The notes under the pieces are model-generated. The model was not told the origin of the DNA. It ran no database searches and saw only the letters and a list, made by a program, of their open reading frames with translations. Position numbers and translations under genes: made by a program. Positions 10,475 through 56,068 of a stretch of DNA of 64,000 nt are shown here, piece by piece. This DNA is from Agrococcus lahaulensis DSM 17612 (GTDB taxonomy: Bacteria; Actinomycetota; Actinomycetes; Actinomycetales; Microbacteriaceae): positions 1 through 64,000 of the forward strand of contig NZ_AULD01000017.1 of the NCBI RefSeq assembly GCF_000425105.1, read 5' to 3'. Position 1 is the first letter of the stretch. Each line of letters starts with the position of its first letter.

Positions 10475-11752
<1,278 letters not shown>

Positions 11753-11758
11753 GCCTCG

Positions 11759-11788
11759 TTGCGGCGGCACGGTAGGTAAGGCTACCCT
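11759..11788 (+). promoter_or_regulatory. Promoter of the iron ABC transporter operon
   Basis: TTGCGG (11759-11764) and TACCCT (11783-11788) are separated by 18 bp. The GTG start codon lies 6 nt after the -10, so the mRNA is probably leaderless. Confidence 0.65.
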
Positions 11789-11793
11789 TACCT
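11773..11793. promoter_or_regulatory. DtxR/IdeR-type iron box
   Basis: TAGGTAAGGCTACCCTTACC closely follows the DtxR/IdeR consensus (TwAGGTwAGsCTwACCTwA). It covers the spacer, the -10 and the inferred transcription start of the downstream ABC importer. Iron-loaded repressor here would block RNA polymerase, which predicts induction by iron starvation. Confidence 0.8.
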
Positions 11794-11794
11794 C

Positions 11795-12613
11795 GTGAGC
11801 CTCACCCGACCCAGCGCGCTGCGCGCCGACGACGTCACCCTCGCCTACGGGCGGGAGGCGATCGTGCACGCCGCGTCGATCGCGCTCGCCCCGGGCCGCG
11901 TGACGGCGCTCGTCGGCCCGAACGGCTCCGGCAAGTCGACGCTGCTTCGCGGCCTCACCGCGCTACACCGGCCGAGCGAGGGGCGCGTGCTCTTCGCCGA
12001 CGGTGCCGACGCCTCGGGCCTCGCCGAGCGGGAGCTCGCCCGCCGCATCGCGCTGCTCGCGCAATCGCATCCCGACCCCTCTGGCGTGAGCGTGCGCGAG
12101 GTCGTCGCCTACGGCCGATTCGCGCACCGCGGCCGCTTCCGCTCCGGCGACCCCCGCGGCGCCGAGGTGATCGAGCGCGCCATGGCGGCGACCGGCATCG
12201 ACGGGCTCGCCGACCACCCGGTCGCGCAGCTCTCCGGCGGGCAGCGCCAGCGCGTCTGGCTCGCGACGTGCCTCGCCCAGGAGACCGGCATCGTGCTGCT
12301 CGACGAGCCCACGACGTTCCTCGACGTGCGCTACCAGCGCGAGATCCTCGAGATCGTGCGGGACCTCGCCGACGACGGCGTCGCGGTCGGCATCGTGCTG
12401 CACGACCTCGAGCAGGCCGCCGAGGTCGCCGACGACGTCGTGCTGCTCGTGCACGGCCGGATCGTCGCGACCGGCAGCCCGGAGGAGGTGCTGACGGCCG
12501 AGCGCCTCAGCGCCGCCTACGAGGTGCCCATCGACGTCGAGCCCGATCCCTCGGGCTTGCGCATCCGGCCGCAGCGGCTCCGCCGTCGGCCCCTCGTGTC
12601 GCGCGCCGCGTGA
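11795..12613 (+). CDS. Iron-siderophore ABC transporter, ATP-binding protein (FecE/FepC type)
   Basis: A 272-residue cytoplasmic ATPase that energises siderophore-iron uptake. Walker A GPNGSGKST is at 41-49, signature LSGGQRQR at 146-153, Walker B ends in DE at 170-171, and the H-loop His is H203. YGRFAHRGRF just before the signature region is typical of the FepC/FhuC group. GTG 11795 begins 6 nt after the -10, and the iron box covers the promoter. The next genes encode the binding lipoprotein and a fused permease, so all parts of an importer are together. The C-terminus is Arg-rich. Confidence 0.93.
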   Translation: MSLTRPSALRADDVTLAYGREAIVHAASIALAPGRVTALVGPNGSGKSTLLRGLTALHRPSEGRVLFADGADASGLAERELARRIALLAQSHPDPSGVSVREVVAYGRFAHRGRFRSGDPRGAEVIERAMAATGIDGLADHPVAQLSGGQRQRVWLATCLAQETGIVLLDEPTTFLDVRYQREILEIVRDLADDGVAVGIVLHDLEQAAEVADDVVLLVHGRIVATGSPEEVLTAERLSAAYEVPIDVEPDPSGLRIRPQRLRRRPLVSRAA

Positions 12614-12654
12614 CGCGCACTCCCATCGGGTGCAGCGCCCGAGGAAGGACCCCC

Positions 12655-13641
12655 ATGTCCAAGCGAACCCTGCTCGCCGGCGCCGCCCTGCTGTCGGCGC
12701 TCGCCCTGAGCGCGTGCGGCACCACCGAGCCGGCCGGCTCGAGCCAGGGCGCGGAGCCCGAGGGCTCGGCGGTCACCGTGACCGACGCGCGCGGCGTCGA
12801 GGTCGAGGTGCCCGCGGGCGTCACCGACGTCGTCGCGCTCGAGTGGGTCGCCGTCGAGCACCTGCAGACGGTGGGCATCCCGCCCGTCGGCGTCGCCGAC
12901 GTCGAGGGCTACGAGAGCTGGGCCGGCACCGGTGCGCCGCTCGAGGGCGAGCCGACCGACGTCGGCACGCGCACCGAGCCCTCGATGGACTCGATCGCGG
13001 CGCTCGCACCCGACCTCATCGTCGCCGTCGCGGGCCGCGACGACGCCGCGTACGGCGACCTCGAGGCCATCGCGCCTGTCCTCGTCCTCGCCGGGGCCGA
13101 CGCATCCGACCCCCTCGGCACGATGCTCGCCGACCTGCGGCTCGTCGCCGAGGCGACGGGGACGGCGGAGGCGGCCGAGTCCGCGATCGAGGAGTTCGAG
13201 GCGCACGTCGACGAGCTCGCCGCCGAGGTCGAGGAGGCCGGGCTGACCGGCACGCCCCTCGCGCACATGGACGGCTATGAGAACGGCGGCCAGATCGAGA
13301 TCCGGCCCTACGCCGACGGTGCGCTGCTGCCCGCGGCGTTCGAGGAGATCGGCTTCGAGAACGGCTGGCCGGGGGAGGGCGACCCGCAGTACGGGCTCGG
13401 CATCACCGATGTCGAGGGCCTCACCGCGCTCGACCCCGAGTCGCACATCCTCTACATGACCGTCGGCGACCGCGACGTGTTCGTCGACCAGCTCGCCTCG
13501 AACGCGATCTGGACGAGCCTGCCCGCGGTCGAGGCGGGCCGCGTGCACCGGCTGCCCGACGGCATCTGGCTCTTCGGCGGCGTCGACTCCGTGAGCGCCT
13601 ACCTCGACGCGGTGCTCGCGTCGCTCTCGCCCACGCCGTGA
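12655..13641 (+). CDS. Iron-siderophore ABC transporter substrate-binding lipoprotein
   Basis: A 328-residue periplasmic-binding-protein-like lipoprotein of the FecB/FepB class III fold. The signal peptide ends in a lipobox with Cys21 (LALSAC). A Gly/Ser/Glu linker follows, then VTVTDARGVEVEVPAGVTDVV, where binding proteins of this type start their fold, and SMDSIAALAPDLIVA. It captures ferric siderophore at the membrane surface and delivers it to the fused permease. ATG 12655 has GAGGAAGGA upstream. The stop overlaps the permease GTG by four bases (GTGA), indicating translational coupling. Confidence 0.9.
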   Translation: MSKRTLLAGAALLSALALSACGTTEPAGSSQGAEPEGSAVTVTDARGVEVEVPAGVTDVVALEWVAVEHLQTVGIPPVGVADVEGYESWAGTGAPLEGEPTDVGTRTEPSMDSIAALAPDLIVAVAGRDDAAYGDLEAIAPVLVLAGADASDPLGTMLADLRLVAEATGTAEAAESAIEEFEAHVDELAAEVEEAGLTGTPLAHMDGYENGGQIEIRPYADGALLPAAFEEIGFENGWPGEGDPQYGLGITDVEGLTALDPESHILYMTVGDRDVFVDQLASNAIWTSLPAVEAGRVHRLPDGIWLFGGVDSVSAYLDAVLASLSPTP

Positions 13642-49318: not shown

Positions 49319-51256
49319 TCAGGCCCGCCAGAACGCTCCCGCGTCGCCGCCGCGGGCGCGAACGAGCGCGACGGCCATGCTGCCGCGCCCGCGGGCGGTG
49401 AAGCGGTCGCCCTCGATCGTCGGCTCCGCCTGGGCGCCGTCGATCCAGAGCGCGATGGCGTCGCCCGTCGCGCGACCCGAGACCGTGAGCTCGTCGCCGT
49501 CGCGGGTCACGAGCAGCTCGACGCTCGCGTCGTCAGCGCCGCCGAGCGCGGTCCAGCGCGTCGCCGGCAGCTCCGGCGTCCGGGGCGGCACGGTGCGCCG
49601 CTGCCGCTGCGCCTCGATCGCGAGCCCGATGCGCAGCAGGCGCTCGTCGTCGTAGGGCCGGCCGGCGATCGTGAGCCCGACGGGCATCCCGATGTCGCGC
49701 ACGGTGCCCATCGGCACCGTGACGGTCGGGATGCCGAAGTGCCGCCACACGAGGTTGCCGTTCGCGACCCACGTGCCGTTGCGCCACGCGAGCTCCGCCG
49801 AGGCGGGGTTCGTGTCGGCGTCGGCGGGTGCGACGTCGGCGAGCGTCGGCATCACGACGACGTCGATCCCGTTCGCGTCGAGCCACTCGTCCCAGTCGAG
49901 GCGGCGCGTCTCCTCGAGCCCCGCGATGCCGGCCGCCATCGCGGGGATGTCCTCGAGCTCGGGCACGGGCAGCGAGGGGAACTCGGCGAGGTCGATGCTC
50001 GCCGCGGGCTCGAACGCGGGCGAGCTGCGCTCGAAGCGGTCGGGGAGGGCACCGGGCGGATGCGGGAAGATGCGCTCGCCGTCGACGTCGCGCAAGTGCG
50101 TCAGGGCCGGATCGCCGTTGCGCTGCAGGAAGCCCTCCCAGGCCCACACCGCGAGCTCGCGCAGCTCGCTCTCGATGAAGCGGGGCGGGACGATGCCGCG
50201 GTCCAGGATGTGAGGCGCGCCGTCGCGATCGCCCTCGTAGTTCGACACGAGCGGCAGGTCGGTCTCGACGACGGTCGCGCCCGCGGCGCGCAGGTCGTCG
50301 GCCATGGCGCGCCAGAGCTCGAGCACGCTCTCGCGCGTCGGGATGGGGGTGCGGAGCTCCCGGTCGCCGCCGATGTACATGCGCGGCACCGCGATCGTGA
50401 GGCCGGCCAGGGGCGCGGGCTCGAGCGCCGCGAACGAGGCCGGCCGCACGTCGGCCACGGCCGGCACGTCGAGCCACGGCTGCTGTCGCCAGAAGTCACC
50501 GTCGGTGCGCTCGTCCGGCACCACGACCGCGTCGAGCGCCGCGAGCAGGTCGGCCATCGAGCGGGTGTGCGGCACGACGACGTCCATCGTGGGCACGAGC
50601 GCCCAGTTGCCGCGCATCGAGATGAGGCCGCGGGAGGGCGTGTAGGCGCACAGCGCGTTGCAGCTCGCAGGCGCCCGGCCCGACGACCACGTCTCCTCGC
50701 CGAGCCCGATGACGCCGATCGAGGCGCCGGTCGCGCTGCCGGAGCCGTTGGAGGAGCCGGAGCCGAACGCGCTCGTCAGCCACTCGGCGCTGTAGGGGCT
50801 CTCGGCGCGGCCGCGGAGGCCCCGCTGCATGCCGCCGTTCGCCATCGGGGGCATCGTCGTGAGGCCGATGAGCACCGCCCCGGCCGCGCGCATCCGCTCG
50901 ATCGCGAACGCGTCCTCGCCGGCCACGAGGTGCTCGAAGGCGGGGCTCCCGGCCGAGACCGTCATGCCGCGCACCGAGTAGCTCTCCTTCGCGGTGAACG
51001 GGATGCCGTCGAGCGGCCCGGCGGCACGGCCGGCGCGGATCCGCGCGTCGGCGGCCGCCGCCGCCTCGAACACGTCGGGCGCGAGCACGGGCACGGCGTT
51101 CAGGCAAGGGCCTGCGACGTCGAACGCGGCGATCCGCGCGAGCGTGAGCGCCGCGAGCTCGGTGGCGGTCGTCCGCCCCGCGTCGAGCTCGGCCCGCAGC
51201 GAGCGCACGCTCGCCTCGACGAGCCGCACGCCATCCTCCGAAGGCACCTCGCTCAC
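49319..51256 (-). CDS. Amidase-signature family hydrolase, possible N-carbamoylputrescine amidase
   Basis: A 645-residue amidase-signature enzyme. The catalytic Lys is in DGIPFTAKES, the cis-Ser in GSGSSNGSGSATGA, and the nucleophile Ser region is GEETWSSGRAPAS, a variant of the usual TGGSIR motif that keeps the serine in register. A C-terminal addition of about 90 residues (after RTVPPRTPELPA) looks beta-rich. Its GTG overlaps the stop of an agmatine-deiminase-like gene (GTGA), so the two act together. I infer hydrolysis of N-carbamoylputrescine, which elsewhere is done by an unrelated nitrilase-type enzyme. Other amides are possible. Confidence 0.85.
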   Translation of the reverse strand: MSEVPSEDGVRLVEASVRSLRAELDAGRTTATELAALTLARIAAFDVAGPCLNAVPVLAPDVFEAAAAADARIRAGRAAGPLDGIPFTAKESYSVRGMTVSAGSPAFEHLVAGEDAFAIERMRAAGAVLIGLTTMPPMANGGMQRGLRGRAESPYSAEWLTSAFGSGSSNGSGSATGASIGVIGLGEETWSSGRAPASCNALCAYTPSRGLISMRGNWALVPTMDVVVPHTRSMADLLAALDAVVVPDERTDGDFWRQQPWLDVPAVADVRPASFAALEPAPLAGLTIAVPRMYIGGDRELRTPIPTRESVLELWRAMADDLRAAGATVVETDLPLVSNYEGDRDGAPHILDRGIVPPRFIESELRELAVWAWEGFLQRNGDPALTHLRDVDGERIFPHPPGALPDRFERSSPAFEPAASIDLAEFPSLPVPELEDIPAMAAGIAGLEETRRLDWDEWLDANGIDVVVMPTLADVAPADADTNPASAELAWRNGTWVANGNLVWRHFGIPTVTVPMGTVRDIGMPVGLTIAGRPYDDERLLRIGLAIEAQRQRRTVPPRTPELPATRWTALGGADDASVELLVTRDGDELTVSGRATGDAIALWIDGAQAEPTIEGDRFTARGRGSMAVALVRARGGDAGAFWRA

Positions 51257-52278
51257 GAGGCGCTCCTCGGCTGCTGCTGCGTGATGCAGTGGATGCCGCC
51301 GCCGCGCGCGAAGAGCTCGCGGGCGTCGAAGGTCACGGCGCGCCGCCCCGGGTAGACCGCCTCGAGCACCTCGCGCGCGCCCTCGTCGGCGGCGGGGTCG
51401 TCGAAGCCGCACACGATGACGCCGTCGTTCACGATCACGTGGTTGACGTACGACCAGTCGACCCAGCCCTCGCCGTCGCGGAGCGTCGCGGGCGCGGGCA
51501 GCGGCACGACCTCGAGCCGAGCGCCGCTCGCGTCGACCGCCTCGGCGAGCAGCCTCGCGGTGTCGCGCGAGACGGCGTGGTCGGGATGCTCGGGGGAGCG
51601 CTGGTCATGCACGAGCACGCGGCCGTCCCCGACGAGCGACGCGACGATGTCGACGTGGCCGCGCGTGCCGTAGCGCTCGTAGTCGCGCGTGAGGCCGCGG
51701 GGGAGCCAGATGGGATGCGTCGCACCGATCGTGCGCTCGAGCTCCGCCTCGACCTCGGCGCGCGAGATGCCGGGGTTCCGGCCCGGGTCGAGCTGCACCG
51801 TCTCGGTGAGCAGCACGGTGCCGCGGCCGTCGACGTGGATGGCGCCGCCCTCGTTGATGAGCGGGGAGGGGATGCGCTCAGCGCCGGCGAGCTCCGCCAC
51901 GAGCGAGCCGATCCGCGCGTCGTGCTCCCAGCTCGCCCAGTCCTGCGCGCCCCAGCCGTTGAAGACCCAGTCGACCGCGCCGAGCCTGCCGCGCTCGTCG
52001 AGCACGAAGGTCGGGCCGATGTCGCGCATCCACGCGTCGTCGAGCGGCGCCTCGACGATCGTCACGGCGCTCGAGAGCAGCCGTCGCGCGACGCCCAGCT
52101 CGTCGGCGTCGACGATCATCGTCACGGGCTCGAACTCGCTCGCGGCGTTCGCGACCGCCGCCCAGGCCTCGTGCGCCGCCGCGGCCTCGGCGGGCGAGTC
52201 GCCGGCGTTCGGGCCGTGCGGGAACGCCATCCACAGCCGCTCGTGCGGCGCCGACTCCACGGGCATGCGCCAGGACAT
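51253..52278 (-). CDS. Agmatine deiminase family protein
   Basis: A 341-residue guanidine-modifying enzyme (AguA/PAD_porph family) that converts agmatine to N-carbamoylputrescine and ammonia. Typical motifs are WMAFPHG, DDAWMRDIGPTFV, NEGGAIHVDG (usually EGGN, here Ala), YGTRGHVD, and the catalytic Cys331 in GGGIHCITQQ. ATG 52278 has GGGAGACGG upstream. It is first in a two-gene unit with the amidase and is divergent from a TetR gene, with a 20-bp palindrome between them. Context with an amine oxidase and permease supports a polyamine role. Confidence 0.88.
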   Translation of the reverse strand: MSWRMPVESAPHERLWMAFPHGPNAGDSPAEAAAAHEAWAAVANAASEFEPVTMIVDADELGVARRLLSSAVTIVEAPLDDAWMRDIGPTFVLDERGRLGAVDWVFNGWGAQDWASWEHDARIGSLVAELAGAERIPSPLINEGGAIHVDGRGTVLLTETVQLDPGRNPGISRAEVEAELERTIGATHPIWLPRGLTRDYERYGTRGHVDIVASLVGDGRVLVHDQRSPEHPDHAVSRDTARLLAEAVDASGARLEVVPLPAPATLRDGEGWVDWSYVNHVIVNDGVIVCGFDDPAADEGAREVLEAVYPGRRAVTFDARELFARGGGIHCITQQQPRSAS

Positions 52279-52302
52279 CCGTCTCCCATCATCGCGATCG
52301 CG

Positions 52303-52322
52303 TATTGATCGGTTGATCAATA
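52303..52322. promoter_or_regulatory. Operator 1: perfect-arm 20-bp palindrome
   Basis: TATTGATCGGTTGATCAATA has 8-bp arms with a 4-bp centre. It lies in the 84-bp gap between the agmatine deiminase gene and the TetR gene. TAGTCT overlaps its right edge as a possible -10. An almost identical site lies before the amine oxidase gene. Confidence 0.8.
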
Positions 52323-52362
52323 GTCTGGGTCGACAAGTTACTGTGGTCGCGGCGAGGAAGCA

Positions 52363-52989
52363 ATGACCCCAGCGAAGCGAGTGCGGAAGAGTCCCGAGGA
52401 GCGGCGCGCCGACGTGTACGGCGCGGCGCGCGCGATCGCGCTCGAATCCGGCCTGAGCGCCGTCACCCAGCGCGCGGTCGCCGAGCGCGCCGGGGTCGCG
52501 CCCGGGCTCGTCACGCACTACGCCGGCCGCATGGAGCTCCTGGTCGCCGAGATCTTCCACGACATCGCGCAGGAGGAGCTCGAGACCGTGCGGTCGAGCG
52601 TCGATGCCGTGGACGGCGACGACGTCGAGCGCGTCATCGCGCTCCTGCACGGGCTCATCCGCGACTACCGCCGCGACGTCGCGCTCGTGTGGCTCGACGG
52701 CTGGAGCCTGTCGCGCCGCAACGAGGAGCTCGCCGCGACGCTCGTCGACCAGGCGCGCGCGTGGGAGGACTTCGTCGCGGGCGTCTTCGAGCGAGGGGAT
52801 GCCTCGGGCGCCTTCCGCGCGCCGGACCCCCTCGCGCTCGCGCGCTTCGTGATCGGCGCGACCGACGGCTTGAGCGCGCAGGCGACCGTGTGGGCCGGGC
52901 ACGAGGAGGAGACGGTGCGCTACGTCACGCGCACGGTCGCGGGGCTGCTCGGCATCCCGAGCTCGGCGCTCGCCCGCGCCGCCTATTGA
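52363..52989 (+). CDS. TetR/AcrR-family regulator of the polyamine module
   Basis: A 208-residue regulator. The helix-turn-helix is RADVYGAARAIALESGLSAVTQRAVAERAGVAPGLVTHYAGRMELL (in order, about residues 13-58). The C-terminal domain, with WLDGWSLSRRNEELAATLVDQARAWEDFVAGVFE, is of the BetI/TetR_C type seen in regulators that sense small cationic ligands. ATG 52363 follows GAGGAAG. Palindromes on both sides of the gene, one overlapping its own stop codon, suggest it represses itself, the deiminase-amidase unit and the oxidase-permease unit. Confidence 0.9.
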   Translation: MTPAKRVRKSPEERRADVYGAARAIALESGLSAVTQRAVAERAGVAPGLVTHYAGRMELLVAEIFHDIAQEELETVRSSVDAVDGDDVERVIALLHGLIRDYRRDVALVWLDGWSLSRRNEELAATLVDQARAWEDFVAGVFERGDASGAFRAPDPLALARFVIGATDGLSAQATVWAGHEEETVRYVTRTVAGLLGIPSSALARAAY

Positions 52990-53003
52990 TCATCTGACCA
53001 ATA
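52984..53003. promoter_or_regulatory. Operator 2: palindrome overlapping the TetR stop codon
   Basis: TATTGATCATCTGACCAATA matches operator 1 in both arms, with one mismatch and a different 4-bp centre. It begins in the last sense codon of the TetR gene, includes its TGA, and is followed by TAGTGT (53002-53007), a likely -10 for the amine oxidase gene. Confidence 0.78.
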
Positions 53004-53061
53004 GTGTGCGACACTCGCTCCCGCGGCGCTGAGCAGCGCCGACGAGGGAGGGATCCACACC

Positions 53062-54423
53062 ATGCTCGAACGCGCTAGCGACGTGCTCGTCATCGGCGCC
53101 GGGGCCGCTGGCCTCAGCGCAGCGACGCGACTGGTCGAGGCCGGTCTGACGGTGACGGTGCTCGAGGCGCGCGACCGCGTCGGCGGCCGCACGTGGACGC
53201 GGGAGATCGACGGCGCCGTGCTCGAGATCGGCGGCCAGTGGGTCTCGCCCGATCAGGAGGCGCTCATCGAGACGCTCGATCGGCTCGGGCTCGAGACCTT
53301 CCCGCGCTACCGCGACGGCGAGAGCATCTACGTCGACCGCGAGGGGCAGCGCCACCGCTACACGGGCGAGATCTTCCCCGCGGGCGCCGAGACCGAGGCC
53401 GAGATCGAGCGCCTCATCGGCATCCTCGACGCGCTCGCGACCGAGGTCGGCGCGACCGCGCCCTGGGCGCACCCCCGGGCCGCCGAGTTCGACGCCATCT
53501 CGTGGCACCACTGGCTCCGCACCCAGTCCGACGACGAATCCGCGTGCGAGATCGTCTCGATCTACGTCGCCGAGGCGATGCTCACGAAGCCCGCGCACTC
53601 GTTCAGCCTGCTGCAGGCGCTGCTGATGGCGGCCTCGGCGGGCGGCTTCGCCAACCTCGTCGACGAGGACTTCATCCTCGACCGCCGCGTCGTCGGCGGC
53701 ATGCAGCAGGTCTCGCTGCGGCTCGCCGAGCAGCTGGGGGACTCCGTCGTCCTGAACGCGCCCGTGCGCCGGCTCGAGCACTCCGCCGACGGCGTCGTCG
53801 CGCACGCCGACGGCGGCGTGGTCGTCCGGGCGAAGCGCGCGGTCGTCGCGGTGCCGCCCAACCTCTACGCGCGCATCGACTTCCAGCCGCCGCTGCCGCG
53901 CCTGCACCAGCAGATGCACCAGCACGTCTCGCTCGGCCTCGTCATCAAGGTGCACGCCGTCTACGACTCGCCGTTCTGGCGCGAGGACGGCCTCTCCGGC
54001 ACGGTCTTCGCCCCGCACAGCCCCGTGCACGAGGTCTACGACAACACGAACCACGAGGACGAGAAGGGCACGCTCGTCGCCTTCATCTCCGACCTCAACG
54101 CGGATGCGTCGTTCCGGCTGGGACCGGAGGCGCAACGCGCTGCGATCCTCGAGCAGCTCGCGGCGTACTTCGGCCCGCGCGCGCTCGAGCCGGAGGTCTT
54201 CTACCTCTCGGACTGGGGTGCCGAGGAGTGGACGCGCGGCGCGTACGCCGCGAGCTTCGACATCGGCGGCCTCTCGCGCTACGGCGCGATGCAGCGCGAG
54301 CCGCTCGGCCCGCTGCACTGGGCCTGCAGCGACATCGCCGCCGAGGGCTACCAGCACGTCGACGGCGCGATCCGCCGCGGCTGGGGCGCGGCGGATGAGG
54401 TCATCCACGAGCTCGGCGCCTGA
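53062..54423 (+). CDS. FAD-dependent amine oxidase, putrescine-oxidase-like
   Basis: A 453-residue flavoenzyme. The FAD-binding motif is VLVIGAGAAGLSAATRLVEAG with the following Glu (VLEARDRVGGRTWT). GGQWVSPDQ and the C-terminal WACSDIAAEGYQHVDGAIRRGWGAA (flavin-contact region) match the monoamine oxidase group. EWTRGAYAASFDIGG resembles bacterial putrescine oxidases, which turn putrescine into 4-aminobutanal with H2O2. ATG 53062 has GAGGGAGG upstream. A putative TetR site lies 58 bp before it, and the APC permease gene follows after 25 bp. Confidence 0.88.
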   Translation: MLERASDVLVIGAGAAGLSAATRLVEAGLTVTVLEARDRVGGRTWTREIDGAVLEIGGQWVSPDQEALIETLDRLGLETFPRYRDGESIYVDREGQRHRYTGEIFPAGAETEAEIERLIGILDALATEVGATAPWAHPRAAEFDAISWHHWLRTQSDDESACEIVSIYVAEAMLTKPAHSFSLLQALLMAASAGGFANLVDEDFILDRRVVGGMQQVSLRLAEQLGDSVVLNAPVRRLEHSADGVVAHADGGVVVRAKRAVVAVPPNLYARIDFQPPLPRLHQQMHQHVSLGLVIKVHAVYDSPFWREDGLSGTVFAPHSPVHEVYDNTNHEDEKGTLVAFISDLNADASFRLGPEAQRAAILEQLAAYFGPRALEPEVFYLSDWGAEEWTRGAYAASFDIGGLSRYGAMQREPLGPLHWACSDIAAEGYQHVDGAIRRGWGAADEVIHELGA

Positions 54424-54448
54424 CCGAGCCAGAACCAGACAGGAGTCA

Positions 54449-55993
54449 ATGGTGACTGCAACACGCGCGGCCGACGCCGCCGTCTCGAACAAGGGGCTCG
54501 CGCCCGGCACCGTCGGGGTGCTCGGCGCCGTCGTGATCGGCGTCTCGACGATCGCGCCCGCCTACACCTTCACCGCGGCGATCGGCCCGACGGTGAGCGC
54601 CGTGGGCGTGCAGGTGCCCGCGATCATCCTGCTCGGCTTCGTGCCGATGCTGCTCGTGGCGTTCGGCTACCGCGAGCTCAACCGCGCGATGCCCGACGCC
54701 GGCACGTCGTTCACGTGGGCGACCCGCGCGTTCGGCCCCTACGTCGGCTGGATGGCCGGCTGGGGCCTCGTGATCGCGACCGTGCTCGTGCTCTCGAACC
54801 TCGCGGGCATCGCCGTCGACTTCCTCTACCTGCTGCTCGCGCAGATCACCGGCAACGAGTCGATCGCCGAGCTCGCGGCGAACCCGTTCATCAACGTCAT
54901 CACGTGCCTCGCCTTCATGGCCGCCGCGACCTTCATCTCCTACCGCGACATCGAGACCACGCAGCGCGTGCAGCTCGGCCTCGTCGCGTTCCAGGTGCTC
55001 GTGCTGCTCGTCTTCGGCATCACCGCGCTCGTCCGGGCGTCGTCGGGCGAGGCGATCGACCACACGCCGATCGACGCGTCGTGGTTCAACGTGCTGCAGG
55101 CGCCCTCGGTGAGCGCGGTCATCGCGGGCCTGTCGCTCTCGATCTTCATCTTCTGGGGCTGGGACGTCGTGCTGACGATGAACGAGGAGGCGGAGGACCC
55201 GGCGCGCACGCCCGGCCGCGCCGCCGCCCTCACGATCGTCGTCGTGCTCGGCCTCTACCTGCTGCTCGCCATCGCGCTGCTCGCCTTCGCCGGCAACGGC
55301 GAGACCGGGCTCGGCCTCGGCAACCCCGACATCCAGGACAACGTCCTCTTCTTCCTCTCCGACCCGATCATGGGGCCGCTCGGCTGGCTCATCTCGCTCG
55401 CCGTGCTGTCGTCGTCGGCCGCGTCGCTGCAGTCGACGGCGCTCTCGCCCGCCCGCACGCTCCTCGCGATGGGCCACTACGGCGCAGTGCCCGCGCGCTT
55501 CGCGACGGTGCACCCGCGCTACCGCACGCCCGGCTTCGCCGCCGTCGTCGCGGCGCTCGTCGCGAGCGGCTTCTACGCGGTCATGCGCTTCGTGAGCGAG
55601 AACGTGCTGTGGGACACCATCACCGCGCTGGGCATGATGGTCTGCTTCTACTACGGCCTCACCGCGCTCAGCGCCGTCTGGTACTTCCGGAAGACGGCGA
55701 CCTCGTCGGCCAAGGCCTTCCTCGTGCAGCTCCTGTGCCCGCTCATCGGCGGCGTCATGCTCGTCGTGCTCTTCGTGCAGACGCTGATCGACAGCCTCGA
55801 CCCGGCCTACGGCTCGGGCTCCGAGATCGGCGGCGTCGGCCTCGTCGGCATCCTCGGCATCGGCATGCTGCTGCTCGGCGTCGTGCTCATGCTCATCATG
55901 CGCAGGCTCCGTCCCGCGTTCTTCCGCGGCGAGGTGCTGCCCAAGGGCTTCAACAAGGGCGACCTCGACACGAAGGCGCTCTTCATCAAGTAG
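54449..55993 (+). CDS. APC-superfamily amino acid/polyamine permease
   Basis: A 514-residue transporter with about 12 helices. Helix 1 carries GVSTIAPAYTFTAAIGP, a broken-helix substrate-binding motif. IFIFWGWDVVLTMNEEAEDPARTPGRAA corresponds to helix 6 and the following loop. ATG 54449 has AGGAG 4 bases upstream. It is transcribed with the putrescine-oxidase-like gene and followed by a strong terminator, so polyamine (agmatine, putrescine) or related amine uptake is the natural inference; amino acids are also possible. Confidence 0.88.
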   Translation: MVTATRAADAAVSNKGLAPGTVGVLGAVVIGVSTIAPAYTFTAAIGPTVSAVGVQVPAIILLGFVPMLLVAFGYRELNRAMPDAGTSFTWATRAFGPYVGWMAGWGLVIATVLVLSNLAGIAVDFLYLLLAQITGNESIAELAANPFINVITCLAFMAAATFISYRDIETTQRVQLGLVAFQVLVLLVFGITALVRASSGEAIDHTPIDASWFNVLQAPSVSAVIAGLSLSIFIFWGWDVVLTMNEEAEDPARTPGRAAALTIVVVLGLYLLLAIALLAFAGNGETGLGLGNPDIQDNVLFFLSDPIMGPLGWLISLAVLSSSAASLQSTALSPARTLLAMGHYGAVPARFATVHPRYRTPGFAAVVAALVASGFYAVMRFVSENVLWDTITALGMMVCFYYGLTALSAVWYFRKTATSSAKAFLVQLLCPLIGGVMLVVLFVQTLIDSLDPAYGSGSEIGGVGLVGILGIGMLLLGVVLMLIMRRLRPAFFRGEVLPKGFNKGDLDTKALFIK

Positions 55994-56008
55994 CGGCGCC
56001 CACGACGA

Positions 56009-56054
56009 CGGATGCGTCCGGCCAGGTCCCCACGGACCGGGCCGGACGCATCCG
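56009..56054 (+). terminator. Long two-level hairpin terminator
   Basis: A 15-bp outer stem (CGGATGCGTCCGGCC with its exact complement) carries an inner GGTCC/GGACC hairpin. It starts 15 bp after the permease stop and ends the polyamine module. A T/C-rich tract (GTCTGTCTGCCTGCC) follows. Confidence 0.88.
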
Positions 56055-56068
56055 GTCTGTCTGCCTGC

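Follow-up and report, generated by a model that had tools for sequence, protein, structure and literature searches.

We characterized a cluster of five genes for predicted agmatine and putrescine catabolism in Agrococcus lahaulensis DSM 17612. The cluster lies in a 64,000-nucleotide stretch of contig NZ_AULD01000017.1, which was analysed as a whole and is called the window here. An amidase gene and an agmatine-deiminase-family gene are read divergently from the gene for a TetR-family regulator, which is followed on its own strand by genes for a predicted putrescine oxidase and a permease (Table 1). All five were found at the positions, on the strands and in the families given in a preliminary description of this DNA, and the GTGA coupling proposed there was confirmed: the end of the deiminase gene overlaps the start of the amidase gene by 4 bases on the minus strand. 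Two copies of a putative operator, which that description does not list, flank tetR. The first is separated from the deiminase start by 24 bases and from the tetR start by 40; the second covers the final codon and the stop codon of tetR, and 58 bases lie between it and the oxidase start. The identities of the genes and their conserved linkage are established, and together the genes very probably provide for the uptake of agmatine and its stepwise conversion, by way of putrescine, to 4-aminobutanal, all controlled by a single repressor.

Table 1. The cluster and its flanking elements, in window positions
Feature	Position	Strand	Length	Family match or remark
Amidase (AguY-type)	49319..51256	-	645 amino acids	PF01425 and NF005127 over cut-off
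Agmatine-deiminase-family enzyme (pentein)	51253..52278	-	341 amino acids	PF04371
Operator 1 (putative), TATTGATCGGTTGATCAATA	52303..52322			0 mismatches
TetR-family regulator, BetI-type C-terminal domain	52363..52989	+	208 amino acids	PF13977 and PF00440 over cut-off
Operator 2 (putative), TATTGATCATCTGACCAATA	52984..53003			1 mismatch
Putrescine oxidase (flavin adenine dinucleotide, FAD), predicted	53062..54423	+	453 amino acids	PF01593
APC-superfamily permease	54449..55993	+	514 amino acids	PF13520 and PF00324 over cut-off
Stable hairpin without T-run, possible two-way terminator	56009..56054			Between convergent genes

The amidase is assigned to the AguY branch (PRK06565/Tse8-like amidases) through two matches: a profile search gave 791 bits against NF005127 (PRK06565 amidase; cut-off, 575), and among proteins of solved structure it is closest to Tse8 (640 bits, residues 10–564). 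The triad motifs are conserved in the alignment (Lys90, Ser168/169 and Ser191/192, which we take to make up the triad). For the 81 residues past the end of the NF005127 match, at the C terminus (window 49322–49564), no Pfam family was reported. AguY is an amidase-signature N-carbamoylputrescine amidohydrolase, the gene of which stands beside agmatine deiminase genes (Li et al. 2025, PMC12283126). The assayed AguY enzymes come from Shewanella oneidensis and Microterricola gilva, the latter with a Km of 0.07 mM for N-carbamoylputrescine, and Tse8 was placed among the AguY proteins as derived from AguY (PMC12283126). Microterricola is a genus of the Microbacteriaceae (L147 in the named set described below), and the window amidase is predicted to hydrolyse N-carbamoylputrescine, as its family relatives do (PMC12283126).

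The oxidase is a close relative of known putrescine oxidases, with near full-length similarity to the Rhodococcus erythropolis enzyme (PDB 2yg3; 648 bits over residues 6–448) and 632 bits against 3rha; the next differently named enzyme scored 297 bits. It keeps Glu324, which presumably has a role in putrescine oxidase, and oxidation of putrescine is predicted. The deiminase matches PF04371 with 341 bits and has the catalytic or conserved residues Cys331, His208, Asp210, Asp86, Glu143, Asp199 and Trp83. In a multiple alignment against plant AIH, for which the active site described in PMC6447857 served as reference, all 81 rows retained the residues at the His, Asp, Glu and Trp positions, and 80 retained the catalytic Cys. 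The single Ser in place of Cys (L059) is probably an alignment or assembly effect, as the match stops short there. The permease has relatives (51–67% identical) near the deiminase in other genera, and families and context point to agmatine or putrescine as its cargo. At four other loci, an NCS1-type permease gene (PF02133) lies between operator and deiminase (L055:9509-11074, L059:9468-11051, L105:6957-8543 and L132:7387-8904); it perhaps encodes an alternative agmatine importer.

To describe the linkage in relatives, we searched 299 genomes of the same family, with oxidase and amidase matches accepted at E ≤ 1e-60 and genomes counted as they stand, with no kinship correction. The deiminase was found in 160 genomes, an oxidase match in 114 and an amidase match in 126. 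Weak or partial oxidase matches in 4 genomes (G058, G075, G232 and G221) and lower-scoring or partial amidase matches in 25 were then dropped, and 4 genomes whose amidase was split in two or fragmentary were kept. AguY is all but confined to genomes with a deiminase: orthologues were present in 100 of those 160 and in 1 of the 139 others. Two sets of loci were compared in more detail: 80 deiminase neighbourhoods, which represent 79 genomes (two neighbourhoods come from G121) picked among the 160 for genus spread (L001–L031 stand outside these counts), and a named set comprising the best 80 of 575 confirmed loci, which covers ten named families and 4 unassigned and partly overlaps the neighbourhoods. 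AguY was present in 39 neighbourhoods (4–5 kb from the deiminase in four of them), a nitrilase in 21, both in none and neither in 20; among the best 80 of 575, the corresponding numbers were 35, 40, 0 and 5. One nitrilase was typed, with AguB as its best NCBIfam model (177 bits; cut-off, 410), and the others were found by similarity to its cluster. None of the 21 nitrilase genomes had an AguY orthologue, and in 13 of the 20 neighbourhoods with neither enzyme the genome had one elsewhere, once at its other deiminase copy. A TIGR03381 (AguB) search of the window's genome gave no match at E ≤ 1e-35.

A palindrome, TATTGATC-N4-GATCAATA, is conserved as sequence beside tetR. The window contains 2 matches at ≤3 mismatches (mean of 0.01 in 100 shuffles), and in its whole genome assembly (13 contigs, 2.68 million bases) only the two sites that flank tetR have ≤2 mismatches. 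At that limit the 80 neighbourhoods yielded 31 sites, whereas 200 permuted half-sites gave 0.055 on average and 2 at most. Of the 33 TetR-linked neighbourhoods, 32 had a palindrome at ≤3 mismatches no more than 260 bases from the tetR start; of the 47 without a TetR match, 3 had a site, all at 3 mismatches. In the named set, 29 loci had a TetR match; 28 of these, and no other loci, had the site, and they belong to Microbacteriaceae, Micrococcaceae and a Gordonia. In two genomes that carry AguY apart from the deiminase, both of one genus (L084 and L130), the site stands before both genes, and in nitrilase versions it precedes the nitrilase (for example, L037 and L102). The palindrome precedes both AguY-type and nitrilase-type versions in Microbacteriaceae, so two unrelated enzymes for the same step appear to be under one regulator; in Micrococcaceae and the Gordonia it stands beside tetR. 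This is the pattern that a single repressor for the whole route would leave, and binding by TetR is predicted. Elsewhere, a copper amine oxidase gene (11242–13272) is preceded at about 700 bases by a 1-mismatch operator (L125:10538-10557), on a different contig from that genome's deiminase.

Linkage in relatives, the lack of which would have counted against the preliminary description, was found: deiminase and AguY genes stand together in many genera, often with tetR and the operator, and the oxidase and/or the permease share the locus in several arrangements. All five genes occur together in four sister genomes of the same genus (L032–L035). In Agrococcus terreus (L153), all five families are present in a different arrangement, and sites precede the permease (3 mismatches) and lie in the deiminase–oxidase gap (2). 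L095 likewise has all five, and Microbacterium barkeri (L152) has them in some 10 kb of DNA, the oxidase there running off the fetched stretch. Another genus has a row of operator, oxidase, deiminase and AguY in three of its genomes (L126, L137 and L106, with 2, 3 and 2 mismatches in their sites), and 11 Micrococcaceae loci of the named set have nitrilase–deiminase–permease rows. Oxidase and deiminase lie ≤6 kb apart in at least 16 of the 71 genomes with both—pairs picked by eye, with the deiminase positions of G003, G033, G165, G216, G239, G248 and G285 not included—and about 0.2 would be expected for random places by our own estimate. A putrescine oxidase match beside the cluster in Pseudarthrobacter (L203) spans only 56 residues and was not counted.

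The best explanation, to which we assign a probability of about 0.82, is a catabolic cluster for exogenous agmatine, organized in two transcription units repressed by TetR. The APC permease would import agmatine (or putrescine), the deiminase would convert agmatine to N-carbamoylputrescine and ammonia, and AguY would release putrescine, CO2 and ammonia from the latter. Putrescine oxidase would then yield 4-aminobutanal, ammonia and hydrogen peroxide, and a chromosomal aldehyde dehydrogenase encoded elsewhere would produce γ-aminobutyrate (GABA). TetR would repress both flanking units and itself through TATTGATC-N4-GATCAATA at the two sites until released by agmatine or N-carbamoylputrescine. 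We infer every one of these reactions, as well as TetR binding, the direction of regulation, the inducer and the permease cargo, from families and context. The first proposal, that genes for import, deimination, loss of the carbamoyl group and oxidation form one unit with a TetR switch, is the best reading. The module had also been called self-contained, which is an overstatement: the aldehyde dehydrogenase needed next lies elsewhere without an operator, and most relatives have the oxidase at another place or lack it. The cluster would place the recently found AguY in a route from uptake to aldehyde with a defined candidate DNA switch. The motif allows members of the regulon to be predicted from sequence; the repressor could serve as an agmatine sensor if its ligand is confirmed.

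Several observations weigh against this reading. The deiminase scores under both AguA equivalog cut-offs (TIGR03380, 278.7 versus 381.8 bits; NF010070, 281.3 versus 483) and is therefore called AguA-family, not AguA. Relative to plant AIH there is a 3-residue insertion after the Asp220 position, that position has no acidic residue in 11 of the 81 rows, and Arg replaces Ala360 in 77. Two proteins of the window's genome exceed the TIGR01230 agmatinase cut-off (G000:C2:83307-84125 and G000:C1:145063-145881), so agmatine may have another route; a third arginase-family match accompanies them. No PF00282 or PF01276 decarboxylase was found in that genome, which suits exogenous agmatine, but other arginine decarboxylase folds were not searched. 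Oxidation of 4-aminobutanal is encoded outside the cluster. The genome-wide link between oxidase and deiminase is weak (oxidase in 71 of 160 genomes with a deiminase versus 39 of 139 without; odds, 2.0), and the G174 genome, from the same genus, has an oxidase with neither deiminase nor AguY. Another same-genus locus (L033) has no site at ≤3 mismatches near the tetR start, and most genomes with AguY away from the deiminase have no site listed before AguY. Finally, the AguY/nitrilase label needs 3 changes on the deiminase tree, of which starred branches force 1; the mutual exclusivity of the two enzymes therefore reflects few events in few lineages. A reading with many independent AguB-to-AguY swaps inside genera was dropped for the same reason, and the deiminase and its partner enzyme mostly travel together.

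The altered deiminase bears on an alternative that we consider unlikely, in which the enzyme acts on a guanidine other than agmatine (for example, homoagmatine), with AguY and the oxidase taking the matching carbamoyl-diamine and diamine. The score under the TIGR03380 cut-off, the changed amine-end pocket with its conserved Arg and the two agmatinase-class proteins already encoded in the genome would all fit, and the proteins produced in the AguY study, as far as its text details them, include no actinobacterial deiminase (PMC12283126). On the other side stand the intact catalytic residues, an Asp220 position that is acidic in 70 of the 81 rows, the Km of the Microterricola AguY for N-carbamoylputrescine (PMC12283126) and the pairing of AguB-like enzymes with the same deiminase family. 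Loss of the amine-binding Asp220, suggested by a pairwise alignment, was dropped once the multiple alignment kept an acidic residue in most rows. If another guanidine were the substrate, the cluster would degrade an as yet unassigned substrate, and AguY and the diamine oxidase would accept homologous products.

The distribution of the oxidase raises a second alternative, that a TetR–deiminase–AguY set for agmatine and an independent putrescine oxidase–permease pair were merely joined in this genus. The core of TetR, deiminase and AguY does occur in many genera and the oxidase and permease stand beside it at few loci, and the genome-wide association of oxidase and deiminase is weak. However, operator 2 precedes the oxidase, a site (1–3 mismatches) stands at the tetR–oxidase gap in four sister genomes, oxidase–deiminase–AguY rows exist in another genus, and the 6-kb proximity of oxidase and deiminase holds in at least 16 of 71 genomes; we regard this alternative as quite improbable. 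That the cluster supplies putrescine from internally made agmatine is very improbable: the group II decarboxylase beside the deiminase, sometimes with a nitrilase, in small-genome relatives looks biosynthetic, and the AguA–AguY route is thought to be so in Shewanella oneidensis (PMC12283126), but the window's putrescine oxidase shares the same operator and its genome encodes no PF00282 or PF01276 decarboxylase.

Group II pyridoxal phosphate (PLP) decarboxylase genes were seen beside the deiminase, with or without a nitrilase, in ten loci of small-genome relatives (L042, L046, L057, L066, L111, L080, L081, L088, L089 and L107). The L107 protein matches PF00282, with diaminobutyrate decarboxylase as its best NCBIfam model, far below cut-off, and the other copies were found by similarity to it; this enzyme may be an unusual arginine decarboxylase. 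The window's genome has 14 aldehyde dehydrogenase matches. Among the 12 of their loci that were fetched, operator-like stretches were confined to L119, which has two, each with 5 mismatches, so the aldehyde step appears to lie outside the unit. In a sister genome, a 2-mismatch operator (L129:8441-8460) stands 58 bases before an aldehyde dehydrogenase gene. Membership of this enzyme in the regulon was rejected for the window's genome, the 86%-identical gene of which (L118) has no site at ≤5 mismatches in 4.4 kb.

A strong terminator had been proposed at the end of the cluster. A very stable hairpin does lie 3′ of the permease gene, between it and a convergent glyoxalase gene (region 55994–56068: −53.1 kcal/mol, z −5.9; none of 200 shuffles equally stable), but it has no T-run, and a terminator scan gave no consensus terminator at 56009–56054; its single hit, a number as expected by chance, falls inside the permease gene. 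A sigma-70 promoter scan gave no match and is uninformative in such DNA. A plasmid search for the cluster returned 38 matching records, none with 80% of it.

We found no description of the operator or the five-gene cluster in the openly licensed literature searched, which did not include Foster et al. 2013, a study that by its title deals with how the putrescine oxidase pathway is organized in genomes. Arthrobacter sp. Rue61a grows on agmatine and is predicted to use the route proposed here, from the deiminase through putrescine and putrescine oxidase to GABA, although agmatine use is marked incomplete and the text, in its passages on this route, describes no joint cluster or operator (PMC3534580). 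A putrescine oxidase is named in another Arthrobacter, in a passage that does not mention agmatine (PMC2991359), and a review gives, in the sections concerned, general steps only (PMC9397018). In Pseudomonas aeruginosa, the TetR-family AguR represses aguBA until agmatine binds (PMC4287709). The window has this layout, with a TetR-family gene and a conserved palindrome before the predicted controlled genes, and the likeness is one of family and arrangement: a TetR-family gene accompanies the deiminase and an N-carbamoylputrescine amidohydrolase in both, but the latter is AguB there and AguY in the window, and the aguBA operon as described contains no oxidase or permease (PMC4287709). In the AguA–AguY pathway, the deiminase gene lies directly beside that of the amidase-signature N-carbamoylputrescine amidohydrolase, and the Microterricola enzyme was assayed; the main text of that study contains 0 mentions of putrescine oxidase, TetR or a permease, whereas the window joins oxidase, permease, TetR and operator to the pair (PMC12283126). 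The preliminary description knew of no described system with this exact five-gene arrangement. The AguA–AguY part of it is in print (PMC12283126), the full cluster was not met with in the literature searched, and the chemistry is largely known, whereas the operator and the five-gene combination are apparently new.

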